A stretch of 33,257 bases of DNA from Candidatus Nitrosopumilus sp. Its GTDB lineage: Archaea; Thermoproteota; Nitrososphaeria; Nitrososphaerales; Nitrosopumilaceae. Of this stretch, positions 4,030-33,009 are shown in pieces. The stretch is taken from assembly GCA_008080815.1 (NCBI GenBank), contig VMDM01000037.1:1-33257 (forward strand). The letters are read 5' to 3'. The notes beneath the pieces were generated by a model. That model searched no databases. It worked only from the letters and a program-made list of their open reading frames with translations, and was not told the origin of the DNA. A program made the translations under genes and the position numbers. Each line of letters begins with the position of its first letter. Position 1 is the stretch's first letter.

Positions 4030-5109
4030 GTGAAATTAAGCACAAAAAATTCTATAAAAAATCATATCCCAATTGAACATGGTGGTAAATTTTCTTTCTC
4101 ATCATCTAATTCAATTTTAATAGATTTCAGTACCAATGTCAATCCACTTGGAATATCTCCAAAATTGTCAAAATTTTTTAAAAGAAATCTTGATAAAATC
4201 TCAGATTATCCTGATGTAAATTCTACCAAACTCTTGGAAGAATTACAAAATCATCTAAAAATACCTAAAAAAAATATTTTGATTGGAAATGGGGCCATAG
4301 AAATTATCTATAACTTTTGTTCTACTTTTCTTTCAAAGAAAAAAGTACTAATTTCAATTCCTACATTTGGAGAATATGAAATTGCAACAAATCTATCTGA
4401 ATCAAAACAAGAATTTTTTGAAACATTAGATTTATCTAAAGATTATAAAAACTTCTTAAAAAAAATCCCATCAAATGGTTGTATTTTCATTTGTAATCCA
4501 AATAATCCCACTGGAACAATTGTGCCAAAAAAGCAAATGCTGGAAATTATCAAGTATGCAAAAAATAAATCATCTCTAGTATTTGTTGATGAATGTTTTA
4601 TCGAGCTTGTACCAAATGGAGATGAATCTATTATCAAATATACTAAAAAATTTGATAATTTACTAGTTTTACGCTCATTTACAAAATCTTTTGGATTGGC
4701 AGGAATTCGAGTTGGATATGCAGTATCCTCAAAGCAAATAATTGATATTTTAAAAAAACTGCAAATTCCATGGAGTGTTAACGCTATTGCTCAAGATGCA
4801 GCTCTAATATCTCTAAAAGATAAAACATTTCTCAAAAAAACTAATTCTTTGATTAAAAATGAAATTAAATTTCTAGAAAAATCCATCAATAAACTTCCAT
4901 ATCTAAGTTGTCAAAAAACAAGTACTAATTTTATTTTAATTAAAACAAATATCAATTCTACACTTTTACAAAAAAAATTATTAGAAAAAAAAATTCTTGT
5001 TAGAGATTGCAAAAATTTTCGAGGACTTGATAATCGTTTTATTAGAATTGCCGTTAAGACCCATAAAGAAAATGTAAAATTAATTTCAACATTGGAGAAT
5101 TTAAGATGA
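4030..5109 (+). CDS. Threonine-phosphate decarboxylase, CobD/CobC type (PLP enzyme)
   Basis: Likely converts L-threonine phosphate to (R)-1-amino-2-propanol phosphate, the linker of the cobalamin nucleotide loop. 359 residues of fold-type I aminotransferase: IEHGGK and DFSTNVNPLG (16-41) are typical of this family's N-terminus, followed by NPNNPTG (156-162), the PLP-contacting Asp in VFVDECF (D187), and the Schiff-base lysine in SFTKSFGLAGIRVGY (K219). It is related to HisC (a true HisC is at 29752), but context and the N-terminal HGG motif favour the cobalamin role. The start is GTG at 4030; its TATA element is unclear, as TTTTTATAAG at 4015-4024 is too close. The stop overlaps cobQ by four bases (ATGA). 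Confidence 0.85.
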   Translation: MKLSTKNSIKNHIPIEHGGKFSFSSSNSILIDFSTNVNPLGISPKLSKFFKRNLDKISDYPDVNSTKLLEELQNHLKIPKKNILIGNGAIEIIYNFCSTFLSKKKVLISIPTFGEYEIATNLSESKQEFFETLDLSKDYKNFLKKIPSNGCIFICNPNNPTGTIVPKKQMLEIIKYAKNKSSLVFVDECFIELVPNGDESIIKYTKKFDNLLVLRSFTKSFGLAGIRVGYAVSSKQIIDILKKLQIPWSVNAIAQDAALISLKDKTFLKKTNSLIKNEIKFLEKSINKLPYLSCQKTSTNFILIKTNINSTLLQKKLLEKKILVRDCKNFRGLDNRFIRIAVKTHKENVKLISTLENLR

Positions 5110-5945
5110 ATTCTATTATGATTCAGGGAACATCCTCTGGTGCAGGTAAGTCCACACTAGTAACCTGTATTTGTAGAATTTTATCTAATCGTGGATTCAA
5201 AGTGGCTCCATTCAAATCTCAAAATATGTCAAATTTTGCTTATGTGGAAAAAAATTTTCAGATTTCAAGAGCGCAAGCTATTCAAGCAATTGGCGCACGA
5301 TGTCAAATCACTCCAGAACTAAATCCAATTATGTTGAAACCTTTAGGAAATTATTTTTCATCAGTATATGTTAACGGAAAATTTTTCAAAAAAATGCATG
5401 CAAAAGATTACTATTCAAAATTTGTAAATCATGATGGAATTAAAATTGTCAAAAATTCTCTCTCTAAATTAAGAAAACAATATGACTTTTTGATAATTGA
5501 GGGTGCAGGTTCTCCTGCAGAAATAAATCTTAAAAGATTTGATATAGCAAACATGAAAATTGCTGAAATTACAAATTCATCAGTAATTTTAGTCACTGAC
5601 ATCGATAAAGGAGGGTCATTTGCAAGTATTGTTGGTACTATGAATCTGTTAGATATGAAACATCAAAAATTAGTCAAGGGTTTTATTTTTAATAAATTTC
5701 GAGGAGATATCCAAGTTTTAAAACCAGGTTTCTCAAAAATTAAAAAAATTACAAAGGTTCCTGTATTGGGAACAATTCCCATGTTGAAAATTGATCTACC
5801 TGAAGAGGATTCTCTTAACGTAAATGCAAAACAATTCAAATGGTCAAAACATAATTTAGAAAAAGTAGATTCAGAAATTAACCGTCTATCAAAAATTATT
5901 GAAAAATCTATTAACCTAAAATCAATTGAGAGAATGATAATATGA
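5106..5945 (+). CDS. cobQ: Cobyric acid synthase lacking the glutamine amidotransferase domain
   Basis: CobQ amidates the b, d, e and g side chains of adenosylcobyrinic acid a,c-diamide. This copy has only 279 residues; the family is usually about 480-500. The ATPase domain is complete: P-loop GTSSGAGKST (8-17), SQNMSNFA, RAQAIQAIGA (55-64), NPIMLKP, IEGAGSPAEINL (131-142), DIDKGGSFASIVGT (165-178), KGFIFNKFRGD (191-201) and LPEEDSL (231-237). About a dozen residues later the protein ends in EINRLSKIIEKSINLKSIE, which resembles the helical segment that normally follows the amidotransferase domain. So roughly 200 internal residues, including the glutaminase Cys and His, seem absent. The gene overlaps both neighbours by four bases, so no remnant lies downstream. 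Free ammonia may be the nitrogen donor (inference). Confidence 0.85.
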   Translation: MNSIMIQGTSSGAGKSTLVTCICRILSNRGFKVAPFKSQNMSNFAYVEKNFQISRAQAIQAIGARCQITPELNPIMLKPLGNYFSSVYVNGKFFKKMHAKDYYSKFVNHDGIKIVKNSLSKLRKQYDFLIIEGAGSPAEINLKRFDIANMKIAEITNSSVILVTDIDKGGSFASIVGTMNLLDMKHQKLVKGFIFNKFRGDIQVLKPGFSKIKKITKVPVLGTIPMLKIDLPEEDSLNVNAKQFKWSKHNLEKVDSEINRLSKIIEKSINLKSIERMII

Positions 5946-6913
5946 TATTTGAATCAATAATTGTTGTTGGATTAGCATTATTAATTGATCTTAAATTTGG
6001 AGATCCTAAAAATAAATTCCATCCAACTGCTTGGATAGGAAATTTAATTGCAAAATTAACCCCACTATGTAAAAATCAAAAAGATTCTATTGAAAAAATA
6101 AATGGAATTATTTTAGTTTCAATAATTACATCTGTTACACTATCCTTGATAATATTATTTGAACTAACTATCTATCAAATTTCAATTGATTGGATTCAAA
6201 TCGTTATTTTTGTTACATTGAGTTCTTTACTCTTGAAATCAACTTTTGCAATTAAAGGAATGGAAAAATATGCTTTGTCAGTTATTGACTCTTTAAAAAA
6301 TAATGATATAGTTAACGCAAGAAATAATCTTTCAAAAATTGTAAAAAGAGACACAAAAAATTTAGATCAAAATCATATAATCTCAGGTGTTTTAGAAAGT
6401 ATTAGTGAAAATACTGTAGATGGGATAACAGGTCCATTATTCTATTATTCATTATTTGGATTACCTGGAGCATTTTTGCATAGAGTTGTTAATACGTGCG
6501 ATTCAATGTTGGGATATAAAACAAAATTATTCAGAAATTTAGGCTGGTTTAGTGCCAAATCTGATTCTGTTTTGAATTTTATTCCATCACGTCTTACAGG
6601 AATTTTGATGATTATTTCTGCAGCTATCTTGAAAAATAATTGGAAGAAATCATATGAGGTAATGTTTAGAGATGCAAAAAATACTGAAAGCCTCAATGCT
6701 GGATATCCAATGGCAGCTTTGGCAGGTGCATTAGATACAAGATTTGAGAAACTTAGTCACTATGCATTAGGTGATGGTGATGTAATGTTAAATGAAAACC
6801 ATGTCCATTCTGCAATATCCATAATGAAACTAACTTCTTTTCTTTTCTTTTGTATAGTTACAATTCCTATAATTACAATTTTGAATTTGATTGGTTGGTG
6901 GCTACATGTTTAA
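5942..6913 (+). CDS. cbiB: Adenosylcobinamide-phosphate synthase (CbiB/CobD)
   Basis: Joins adenosylcobyric acid to aminopropanol phosphate; an integral membrane enzyme and the step directly after CobQ and the threonine-phosphate decarboxylase. 323 residues. Family marks are DLKFGDPKNKFHPTAWIG near the N-terminus, SENTVDGITGPLFYY, the HRVVNTCDSMLGYK segment and NAGYPMAALAGAL. Hydrophobic segments occur at the N-terminus, around 55-95, in the middle near the FYYSLFGLPGAF segment, around 215-230 and at the very C-terminus. The ATG overlaps the cobQ stop (ATGA). It continues into cobS with an eight-base overlap if cobS starts at 6906. Confidence 0.95.
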   Translation: MIFESIIVVGLALLIDLKFGDPKNKFHPTAWIGNLIAKLTPLCKNQKDSIEKINGIILVSIITSVTLSLIILFELTIYQISIDWIQIVIFVTLSSLLLKSTFAIKGMEKYALSVIDSLKNNDIVNARNNLSKIVKRDTKNLDQNHIISGVLESISENTVDGITGPLFYYSLFGLPGAFLHRVVNTCDSMLGYKTKLFRNLGWFSAKSDSVLNFIPSRLTGILMIISAAILKNNWKKSYEVMFRDAKNTESLNAGYPMAALAGALDTRFEKLSHYALGDGDVMLNENHVHSAISIMKLTSFLFFCIVTIPIITILNLIGWWLHV

Positions 6914-7631
6914 AGAACTTAGTTCTGCATTTTCATTTTTGACTATTTTGCCATTTCCTGGAACTTCTCTAGAAAAAACTGCAAAGTACATGTTTCTTTT
7001 TCCTTTAGTTGGAATTGCAATTGGACTTTTAGTTGGTGGATTTGGTTGGGGTCTCTCTGAATTTCTAGAACCATTAATTGTCAGTTTGCTTGTTGTAACT
7101 GGTTTAGCTATTCTTACTGGAATTCATCACACTGATGGATTAGCAGATTTTTCTGATGGTTTGATGGTTAAAGGAACTAAAGAAAAAAAATTACAAGCCA
7201 TGAAAGATGTATCAACTGGTTCTGCAGGAATCACTGCACTAGTTCTATATTTCATTGGAATGGTAATCACTATCTCTCTCACAACTGGTTTTGAATTATT
7301 CAAAGCCATATTGATTAGTGAAATACTGGCAAAATTTTCTATGGTTTTAATTTCATCAGTAGGTAACTCTGCCTCAACTGGGTCAAATTCTACTTTTCTT
7401 CAAGAGATGAAGGACAAACGCAAATTACTAATTGCATTTCTAATAATGATAATTCCAATAATTTTGATTGGCGAAATGGTCGGATTTTTCATGCTCATAG
7501 CCACTGTTTTAATCACTTTTTTCGTTCTATTCCTTTCAAAGAGGAGTTTTGGAGGAATAACTGGAGATGTAATAGGTACATCTAATGAATTATCTAGATT
7601 AGCATCACTAATGGTTTTTGTTTCAATATGA
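6906..7631 (+). CDS. cobS: Adenosylcobinamide-GDP ribazoletransferase (cobalamin synthase)
   Basis: Condenses adenosylcobinamide-GDP with alpha-ribazole (or its phosphate) to give cobalamin (phosphate); an integral membrane enzyme. The typical N-terminus FSFLTILPFPG is at residues 9-19, followed by the GIHHTDGLADFSDGL metal-binding segment with DGLMVKG and KLQAMKDVSTGSAG, and long hydrophobic helices to the end. I chose ATG at 6906 (241 aa) over an in-frame TTG at 6891, because MFKELSSAFSFLT matches the family start and GGTGG lies a few bases upstream as a possible ribosome-binding site. The start lies inside cbiB; the stop overlaps cobY by four bases. Confidence 0.94.
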   Translation: MFKELSSAFSFLTILPFPGTSLEKTAKYMFLFPLVGIAIGLLVGGFGWGLSEFLEPLIVSLLVVTGLAILTGIHHTDGLADFSDGLMVKGTKEKKLQAMKDVSTGSAGITALVLYFIGMVITISLTTGFELFKAILISEILAKFSMVLISSVGNSASTGSNSTFLQEMKDKRKLLIAFLIMIIPIILIGEMVGFFMLIATVLITFFVLFLSKRSFGGITGDVIGTSNELSRLASLMVFVSI

Positions 7632-8212
7632 TTGGTATTGTAATGGCTGGTGGTAAAGGAACCAGAATGAAAATGTCTACAGAGAAATTGTTGTTAAATG
7701 ATAAAAAACCAATCATTCAACAAGTAATGGAGGCTTTGATTAATTCTGATTGTTTTTCTAAAACTATTGCTATAACAAGTCCAAATTCACCTAAAACACA
7801 AAATTTTCTTGTTTCTAATAATTTCCAAATTATTGATTCTTCAGGATTGGGATATGTGGAAGATCTTAATTCTGTTCTCAGTCAGTTTGATGATTTGATT
7901 TTTGTTTGTTCCGGTGACATGCCTCTTTTAGATGAAGAAATTATAAAAAAAATTATTTCTTTACATGATGATAAATTTTCTTGGCATAGTTTTTTAGTTA
8001 CTCAGGACTTTTGCAATTCTCTGGGTTTGAATTCAGAATACTCTATCATACATAATGGAAAAAAATGTTTTTTCACTGGAATCTCAATTGTTAATTCTTC
8101 ACAAATTTCAAATCTAGAAAATATTGACGAGCATTTTTCAATATTAGATGATAAAAGATTGGCAATGAATCTAAATTCGAAAAGTGATTATGATTTACTC
8201 AGCGCTTCCTGA
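7628..8212 (+). CDS. cobY: Adenosylcobinamide-phosphate guanylyltransferase, archaeal CobY type
   Basis: Transfers GMP from GTP to adenosylcobinamide phosphate, making the CobS substrate; archaea use CobY in place of bacterial CobU. 194 residues of nucleotidyltransferase fold: MAGGKGTRM (6-14) and TEKLLL form the GTP-binding signature, and CSGDMPLLDEE near residue 100 holds the metal-binding Asp. The same fold occurs in MobA-like molybdenum cofactor enzymes, but its place as the last gene of a cobalamin operon, overlapping cobS by four bases, supports CobY. Its 3' end overlaps the convergent rps27e gene by 18 bases. Confidence 0.85.
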   Translation: MIGIVMAGGKGTRMKMSTEKLLLNDKKPIIQQVMEALINSDCFSKTIAITSPNSPKTQNFLVSNNFQIIDSSGLGYVEDLNSVLSQFDDLIFVCSGDMPLLDEEIIKKIISLHDDKFSWHSFLVTQDFCNSLGLNSEYSIIHNGKKCFFTGISIVNSSQISNLENIDEHFSILDDKRLAMNLNSKSDYDLLSAS

Positions 8213-13696: not shown

Positions 13697-15220
13697 CTAT
13701 TGGGGCTCAATCGTTGCAGGAGGTTTACTAGAAATTGTATATGTCACCCATGTCACATCTTCGATTTCATTAGTAATTCTGTTACTCATTTTTTCGAGTA
13801 TTCCATGTGGTAAACGTGTCCAATCTGCAGTCATTGCATCTATTGAATCTACTACTCTTATCATTACTATATTTCCGTATCTACGCTCATCTCCTACTAC
13901 CCCTACTGCTCTATCATCGCCAACTGCGGCATAAGCTTGCCACACTTTTTCATAAATTCCTCCATTCATCAATTCTTCTTCAACAATTTTACTTGCCTTT
14001 TTTGCTATCATTAATTTTGTATCAGTTACCTCTCCGATTATTCTGACAGATAATCCTGGTCCAGGAAATGGATGTCTCATCAAAAGTTTTTCTGGAACTC
14101 CTAAAATTTTTGCAATTTTTCTTACTTCATCTTTATACAATTCTCTTAAAGGTTCTAAAATTTCTAGATCTAACCATTCAGGTAATCCACCAACATTATG
14201 ATGTGATTTGATAACTGCCGCAGGACCCTTTGATACACCACTTTCAATTACATCAGGATAAAGTGTTCCTTGAGCAAGCCATTTGAATGGACCGTTACTT
14301 TCAGCAAAATTTGTAAAGACTCTAACAAACTCTTCTCCTACGATCTTTCTTTTATCTTCAGGATCTTCTACACCCTTTAATTTAGATAGAAATTCTTGTG
14401 AAGCATCAATCGAATTAAAATTTACTTTGAAATTTTCTTTAAACATCTCTTCGATCTCTTTTTCCTCATTCCATCTAAGCAGTCCATTGTTTACAAAGAC
14501 ACACTTCAATCTATCTCCAATTGCTTTGTGAATTAGTAATGCTGCTACTGTAGAATCAATTCCTCCACTAACACCACATAGTACATTTCCTTCAATTTTG
14601 GAAATTTTTTCCACACTAGAGTCAATAAATCCCTCCATAGTCCACTCTTGTTTTGCTCCACAAACCTTCAAAACAAAATTTTTCAAAATTTCTGTTCCCA
14701 ATTCAGTATGAACTACTTCTGGATGAAATTGAATTCCAAAAACTTTTTTTTCCTCTGATGCTATTGCTGCGGCTTTAGCTCCTTCTGTATGACCAATAAT
14801 TTTGAATCCTGGTGGAATCTCTTCTGCTTCATCACCATGACTCATCCAAGCTCTCAATGATTCTCCTAAATCACTCAAAAGATCTTTATCATTATCTATT
14901 GTTAGAACTGAGGAACCATATTCTTTATTTGCTCTTTTAACTTTTCCACCAAATTTATTTACAATTAATTGGTGTCCATAACAAATTCCTAGTAGTGGTA
15001 AATTCATTTCAAAAATTTTATTCTCTGGATTTGGAGCATCATCTGAATAAACACTTGATGGTCCTCCTGAAAAAATAACACCTTTAGGATTCATTTTTTG
15101 AATCTCTTCATAACTAATATCATATGGAACTAGCTCTGCATATACTGAAAATTCTCTAATTCTTCTACAAATTAGATGACTATATTGTGAACCAAAATCT
15201 AAAACTATAATCTTGTCCAT
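13697..15220 (-). CDS. guaA: GMP synthase (glutamine-hydrolysing)
   Basis: Converts XMP to GMP using ATP and glutamine. 507 residues with both domains fused, unlike the split subunits of many euryarchaea: class I amidotransferase (about 1-190; nucleophile in LGICYGHQ, C80; QFHPEVVHTE with the catalytic His and Glu), ATP-pyrophosphatase with the PP-loop GVSGGIDST (about 217-225), and the C-terminal dimerisation domain with RHPFPGPGLSVRI and ending SSKPPATIEPQ. The ATG at 15220 lies four bases after the upstream hypothetical gene, and two small genes follow closely. The preceding pathway enzyme, GuaB, is encoded 2.3 kb away on the other strand. Confidence 0.97.
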   Translation of the reverse strand: MDKIIVLDFGSQYSHLICRRIREFSVYAELVPYDISYEEIQKMNPKGVIFSGGPSSVYSDDAPNPENKIFEMNLPLLGICYGHQLIVNKFGGKVKRANKEYGSSVLTIDNDKDLLSDLGESLRAWMSHGDEAEEIPPGFKIIGHTEGAKAAAIASEEKKVFGIQFHPEVVHTELGTEILKNFVLKVCGAKQEWTMEGFIDSSVEKISKIEGNVLCGVSGGIDSTVAALLIHKAIGDRLKCVFVNNGLLRWNEEKEIEEMFKENFKVNFNSIDASQEFLSKLKGVEDPEDKRKIVGEEFVRVFTNFAESNGPFKWLAQGTLYPDVIESGVSKGPAAVIKSHHNVGGLPEWLDLEILEPLRELYKDEVRKIAKILGVPEKLLMRHPFPGPGLSVRIIGEVTDTKLMIAKKASKIVEEELMNGGIYEKVWQAYAAVGDDRAVGVVGDERRYGNIVMIRVVDSIDAMTADWTRLPHGILEKMSNRITNEIEDVTWVTYTISSKPPATIEPQ

Positions 15221-32407: not shown

Positions 32408-33009
32408 TGGTCAGTGTTGCAATATTTGATTACGGTGCAGGCAATATATTTAGTCTGAAAAATTCTCTTGAAAAAGTTGGTGCAACAGTTTCAGTAATTA
32501 CTGATTTTGACAAACCAAATAATTTTTCAGGAATTTTTTTACCTGGTGTTGGAAACTTTGATCCTGCAATGGTAAGCATTTCAAAATCCACCACTTCCTT
32601 TTTGGATTTTGTCAAAGAAACACCTGTTTTTGGAATTTGTTTAGGCATGGAAATGTTTTTCAAACAAAGTCAAGAGGGAATTGAAAAAGGACTAAACGTT
32701 ATTGATGGTGAAGTAATTTCTCTTCCAAATTCTCTTAAAGTACCTCATATGGGTTGGAATGATTTGCAAATCAAAGAACCAGGTGTAATTTTAAATGGTG
32801 TCAAAAATGGTTCATGGGTTTATTTTGTTCATTCTTTTAGAGCCAAACCAGATTCTGAAAGTGTAATAACTGCTGAATCTGATTATGGAATTAAAGTTCC
32901 AGCAGTAGTTGAAAAAGATAATTTCTATGGAACTCAATTTCACCCAGAAAAATCTGGAGATGTTGGAAAAATCATGCTAAAAAATTTTCTTGATGTGTGT
33001 AAAAAATGA
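32407..33009 (+). CDS. hisH: Imidazole glycerol phosphate synthase, glutaminase subunit
   Basis: Supplies ammonia from glutamine to HisF. 200 residues of class I amidotransferase: IFDYGAGNIFSL at the N-terminus, LPGVGNF, the nucleophile cysteine in FGICLGMEMFF, and the His-Glu dyad in GTQFHPEKSGDVG. HMGWN and VYFVHSF are further HisH marks. It overlaps hisB by one base and hisA by four. Its intact glutaminase contrasts with the missing one in CobQ at 5106. Confidence 0.96.
   Translation: MVSVAIFDYGAGNIFSLKNSLEKVGATVSVITDFDKPNNFSGIFLPGVGNFDPAMVSISKSTTSFLDFVKETPVFGICLGMEMFFKQSQEGIEKGLNVIDGEVISLPNSLKVPHMGWNDLQIKEPGVILNGVKNGSWVYFVHSFRAKPDSESVITAESDYGIKVPAVVEKDNFYGTQFHPEKSGDVGKIMLKNFLDVCKK

Follow-up and report, generated by a model that had tools for sequence, protein, structure and literature searches.

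A cobyric acid synthase orthologue lacking its glutaminase domain in ammonia-oxidizing archaea

The genome of a Candidatus Nitrosopumilus species encodes an orthologue of CobQ/CbiP that is devoid of a defining domain of this family and is not a standard glutamine-hydrolysing CobQ. The gene occupies positions 5106..5945 on the forward strand of the window (the whole stretch of DNA that was analysed, 33,257 nucleotides of contig VMDM01000037.1), and its product is 279 amino acids long, compared to ~500 in standard CobQ. The cobyric acid synthase profile NF001989 matches the protein over positions 2-258 of 480 (4e-97; 325.8 bits, above the cut-off of 273), and TIGR00313 matches it over positions 1-258 of 477 (2e-90; 303.9 bits, just below the cut-off of 309.9 because half of the profile remains unmatched), i.e., only the N-terminal half of either profile is found and both stop at position 258. 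A Pfam search detects CbiA/AAA_26 and no GATase_3. The sequence-only reading had described the amidoligase (ATPase) domain as intact up to LPEEDSL and the glutaminase (GATase_3) domain as cleanly missing, and both descriptions stand; its size for the missing block, roughly 200 residues, was too low, since ~220 residues are absent between the complete amidoligase domain and the C-terminal helix.

Conservation of the amidoligase domain was assessed against a reference of 85 full-length CobQ sequences, in which conservation reaches 97% or more at 53 positions of the ATPase and 26 of the GATase domain. The window protein keeps 47 of the 53 amidoligase positions and differs at six. In ammonia-oxidizing archaea (AOA), 45 of the 53 are each retained by 90% or more of the proteins; among them are the P-loop, EGAG with its E139 and N141, D165 and NKFRG. 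In the window protein, the P-loop GTSSGAGKS (residues 8-16; 5127..5153, forward strand, as all features below except one) retains the invariants of full-length CobQ, while EGAGSPAEIN of the amidoligase domain (residues 132-141; 5499..5528) and NKFRGD (residues 196-201; 5691..5708) include residues invariant in full-length CobQ. By alignment, LPEEDSL (residues 231-237; 5796..5816) ends the amidoligase domain directly before the missing one. The structural model of the protein has a mean pLDDT of 85.5, lower in the tail, and a fold search with it ranks dethiobiotin synthetases first, as expected for a CobQ-type ATPase domain.

The helix that comes after the glutaminase in full-length CobQ, here SEINRLSKIIEKSINLKSIE (residues 256-275; 5871..5930), is kept. 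A profile built from 97 full-length CobQ tails was run on the segments following EDSL in 53 AOA proteins and on 2120 shuffled segments; the window segment scores 22.1 bits, compared to 13.4 for the best of the shuffles, and 51 of the 53 AOA segments outscore every shuffle. The identification of this tail as that of CobQ, made earlier from the letters of one gene, is thus upheld. Two C-terminal helices are predicted in the model of the window protein (248-268 and 271-278), and the model of a full-length archaeal CobQ has C-terminal helices at 459-469 and 472-478. An extra C-terminal helix was reported in GatD, CobB and CobQ and is missing from other characterised GATases; in CobB, CobQ and GatD it belongs to the glutaminase side (PMC5871853).

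The gene resides in a late cobalamin cluster with the order threonine-phosphate decarboxylase, cobQ, cbiB, cobS, cobY. The upstream gene (4030..5109) is L-threonine-phosphate decarboxylase-like, of the CobD/CobC type, as judged from synteny and a TIGR01140 match (E=4e-85) just below the cut-off. Downstream are cbiB, coding for adenosylcobinamide-phosphate synthase (5942..6913; TIGR00380, E=7e-80), cobS (6891..7631; TIGR00317, E=1e-50) and a gene for a cobY-like nucleotidyltransferase (7628..8212) that matches TIGR00454 and NF045495, both below their cut-offs. As had been noted before, cobQ shares four bases with each of its neighbours, the upstream gene ending at 5109 and the downstream one starting at 5942. 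Elsewhere in the window there are two intact glutaminase-bearing proteins, a fused GMP synthase (14069-15205, reverse strand; 511-residue open frame) and a HisH-like protein (32422-32991, forward strand; 204-residue open frame).

A short gene in a fragmented assembly (52 contigs, 87% complete) could in principle result from a local deletion, a misassembly or a frameshift. We consider this practically negligible, because proteins of like length with a like tail recur throughout the genus, also in genomes assembled as a single contig, and in 20 genera of the family; assembly error is refuted by this recurrence, and the view of the gene as a stable operon member rather than a fragment is borne out. 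Of the 60 genomes of the genus, 57 give some match and 55 carry a short CobQ, 44-70% identical, one of them cut by a contig edge. Two of the exceptions have only a weak paralogue (G001 and G028) and three have no match (G017, G019 and G029); four of these five genomes are less than 75% complete. In the family, TIGR00313 matches 120 of 121 genomes (G136 and G153 weakly), a short CobQ is present in 118, in two of these as split copies (G125 and G135), and matches uninterrupted by a stop end at positions 235-269 of 477. None of the close relatives carries the full domain at this locus, and a second, full-length CobQ was found nowhere else in the 121 family genomes. In all AOA families examined, the gene is a member of the late cobalamin cluster. 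The order of the cob genes is kept in AOA and in non-AOA relatives; in the non-AOA stretches cobS is displaced and cobY was not seen.

Beyond the family, the class was surveyed through its strongest matches, among which any full-length CobQ would be expected; full length is reached only in the families f5, f6, f7, f8, f9 and f17, and genome G216 of f2 has a partial match. In the phylum sample, full-length CobQ is also present in f35, f37, f50 and f60. The family names are inferred: f1 is Nitrosopumilaceae, f2 Nitrosocaldaceae, f3 Nitrososphaeraceae and f35 Sulfolobaceae. The identity of f5 is direct, since the CobQ of Thaumarchaeota archaeon SAT137 (L149) is identical to that of the f5 genome G525, and SAT137 was placed in Candidatus Nitrosomirales, the sister of Nitrosocaldales (PMC10811736). 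Most sampled genomes of f4, which belongs to the same order as AOA, have no CobQ match at all. In four non-AOA genomes of f6 and f7 (G222, G242, G227 and G230), CobQ is full length and intact, and the GATase_3 scan gave no match to CbiA. The Sulfolobaceae-like CobQ of f35 (L129-L134) is full length, with the Cys and the His of GxSxHG present and GYEIH replaced by GYEIR.

Full length does not mean an intact glutaminase, however. Non-AOA relatives such as L044, L046 and L048 keep all 53 ATPase and all 26 GATase positions, whereas the two full-length CobQ of f5 (495 and 494 residues) keep 50 of the 53 ATPase positions. Their glutaminase has lost 13-14 of its 26 positions, among them the GYEIH motif and the catalytic His (GTYxHG changed to GCxLYG). 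The CobQ of G216, with 448 residues and a shrunken glutaminase domain, keeps 52 ATPase positions and has lost 17 of the GATase ones, including the His and the Cys, the latter replaced by Asp. Changes common to f5 and G216, namely PGTKNT to P[SP]SR in the oxyanion loop and GxCGG to GxxEG at the nucleophile elbow, point to a shared ancestor that was probably already dead. The two f5 proteins are 81% identical in the ATPase and 55% in the GATase domain, compared to 65-73% in the GATase domain of intact pairs with like ATPase identity, so that divergence of the glutaminase is faster in f5. Judging from these sequences, catalytic decay seems to have preceded the excision of the glutaminase. In the CobQ tree, the AOA proteins group in a single clade (100/99) amid thaumarchaeal CobQ of full length; f1 and f3 are joined (95/96) and f5 and f2 weakly so (81/57). 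The gene tree does not reject a single excision (AU p = 0.30); however, since G216 and the excised g21 genomes belong to one family, it is suggested that the domain was excised several times rather than once.

The state of the domain follows amoA. Every genome tested from f1, f2, f3 and f5 carries this gene (G525 was outside the test), and none of those tested from f4, f6-f12 and f17 does. In this order, every tested genome with amoA has a CobQ glutaminase that is gone or degenerate, and the genomes with an intact one are without amoA. In the sample, no genome thus combines amoA with an intact CobQ glutaminase. The amoA-bearing lineages constitute one clade of the CobQ tree (100/99), and therefore this is essentially one evolutionary event and an association only, which cannot establish cause. 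Compared with the sequence-only reading, which concerned a single gene, the change is thus seen to be common to all sampled AOA families, to track the presence of amoA and to have left decayed intermediates that are still extant.

How does the short protein obtain nitrogen? We lean towards the view that it is a functional, amidoligase-only cobyric acid synthase that uses free ammonia and whose glutaminase first decayed and was then deleted. AOA are cobalamin producers in which no further CobQ came to light, and the short CobQ therefore most likely still makes cobyric acid. According to this scheme, ATP would activate each of the four side-chain carboxylates (b, d, e and g) of adenosylcobyrinic acid a,c-diamide, and free ammonia would amidate the activated carboxylates with no hydrolysis of glutamine. 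In the lineage leading to AOA, the fused glutaminase would have lost its catalytic residues first, with the amidoligase still under selection, and the dead domain would have been deleted later, leaving traces of decay in Nitrosomirales and in one f2 genome. Free ammonia is, on comparative grounds, the most likely donor because the dead glutaminase of f5 is still fused, two-domain amidotransferases accept ammonia and single-domain NAD synthetases provide a precedent; these last use ammonia, and two-domain amidotransferases generally accept it in vitro (PMC3376133). The wider proposal is that an ammonia-only cobyric acid synthase operates in all AOA; its glutaminase would have been inactivated at about the time when ammonia oxidation arose, would persist as a dead domain among Nitrosomirales and one f2 lineage and would have been deleted, perhaps repeatedly, from the others. 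We give this proposal an even chance of being right.

Several considerations speak against free ammonia. AOA tolerate very low external ammonia, and internal ammonia may for this reason be limiting in them. Nor do AOA use ammonia freely everywhere, because the other amidotransferases found in them keep the glutaminase; class I amidotransferase matches are of usual length in AOA as in relatives. A general loss of glutaminases in AOA is rejected on these grounds, and the idea of the sequence-only reading, taken in the general form that an ammonia-based lifestyle lets the cell drop glutamine, finds no support. The kept tail helix, a part of the glutaminase side, could also be a sign of a remaining docking partner.

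Such a partner figures in the main rival to free ammonia, a glutaminase that feeds the amidoligase in trans and docks on CobQ as GatD does on MurT; the candidates are an orphan class I GATase, the glutaminase domain of CbiA and a shared enzyme such as PdxT or TrpG. This possibility is real, if clearly the less probable, and the retained helix is in its favour, as is lipid II isoglutaminyl synthase, MurT/GatD, where a GATase_3 domain exists as a separate subunit. Among proteins of solved structure, GatD comes closest to the CobQ glutaminase, and it has the same extra C-terminal helix (PMC5871853), but for AOA CobQ no linked glutaminase was detected and the helix has remained with the ligase. 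A dedicated GATase_3 subunit for CobQ was not found in the window genome, where the three GATase_3 matches are CbiA, PdxT and PurQ, nor in the genome panel, where strong full-length GATase_3 matches are confined to CbiA-sized and CobQ proteins, except that the CbiA of G201 is in two open frames. CbiA, which shares its two-domain ancestry and its pathway with CobQ, has intact catalytic Cys and His motifs in the AOA examined (two listed loci are without a readable CbiA), so that of the pair CobQ alone lost the glutaminase; however, CbiA is equally present in f8 and f9 genomes with an intact CobQ. The orphan candidate is a stand-alone class I GATase of ~180 residues with complete Cys-His-Glu motifs, which scores strongly in most AOA genomes scanned and is weakly GuaA-like (L258-L266 and L268). 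Promising by co-occurrence, it was then weakened and is now a weak candidate, because it lies directly downstream of a gene for a UPF0182 membrane protein in all four loci examined, not beside cob genes, and also scores strongly in G242, where CobQ is full length and intact, and in G245, where there is no CobQ. Finally, the face where a glutaminase acting in trans is expected to dock is still filled by the dead domain in f5, which would be easier to reconcile with free ammonia. Sequence does not decide between the two donors, both of which had been considered earlier; the dead-domain intermediates appear to fit free ammonia better.

It is also conceivable, though improbable, that the short protein has another role and that cobyric acid comes from CbiA or an unknown enzyme, or that corrinoids are scavenged. 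The six changed invariants of the window protein and the loss of Q88 in nearly all AOA CobQ would agree with this, and a CobQ-named protein, AhCobQ, is reported to be a lysine deacetylase (PMC11856932). The 45 invariants kept across AOA and the constant place of the gene in the late cobalamin cluster argue against another role, as does cobalamin itself, which is released by N. maritimus cultures (PMC8281238) and is said to be produced by all known thaumarchaeal cultures (PMC6908642). Q88 was also considered as a residue coupled to the glutaminase, and rejected, as it differs as well in Sulfolobaceae-like CobQ that keep the Cys and the His.

AOA are considered to be major marine producers of vitamin B12, and CobQ completes the corrin amidations. 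Should the short CobQ be driven by ammonia, the amount of B12 made would depend on the ammonia inside the cell. The proposed history, if true, would document how a fused glutaminase died before it was deleted, with the intermediates still extant, and the short protein would offer studies of structure and mechanism a naturally single-domain CobQ. Annotation masks the loss, the short protein passing NF001989 and being named cobyric acid synthase. An AOA cobalamin paper lists cobQ without comment on its length (PMC9530722), TIGR00313 was used as a marker in AOA cobalamin work (PMC4303638), and no earlier report of the loss was found in the open-access literature searched.

With respect to known systems, the window protein resembles CobQ/CbiP (TIGR00313, NF001989) in its amidoligase domain, C-terminal helix and cluster position and departs from it in length and in the entire absence of the glutaminase. 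It is like ammonia-dependent NAD synthetase (NadE), which consists of one domain in AOA and most of the relatives tested, in being an ATP-dependent amidoligase with no glutaminase, the use of ammonia being proposed in the case of CobQ. NadE belongs to a different enzyme family, and its single-domain form is thought to be ancestral (PMC3376133), whereas that of CobQ is derived by loss. Four CobQ-like proteins of 304-317 amino acids from other Thermoproteota (L138, L139, L140 and L141, from G510, G391, G391 and G431, respectively) are likewise devoid of a glutaminase, the tail helix following immediately on a CobQ-type ATPase. Unlike the AOA proteins, they have a very divergent ATPase, with 19-22 of the 53 invariants lost and ~109-130 bits to TIGR00313; they probably represent a separate loss of the glutaminase and perhaps have a different function.
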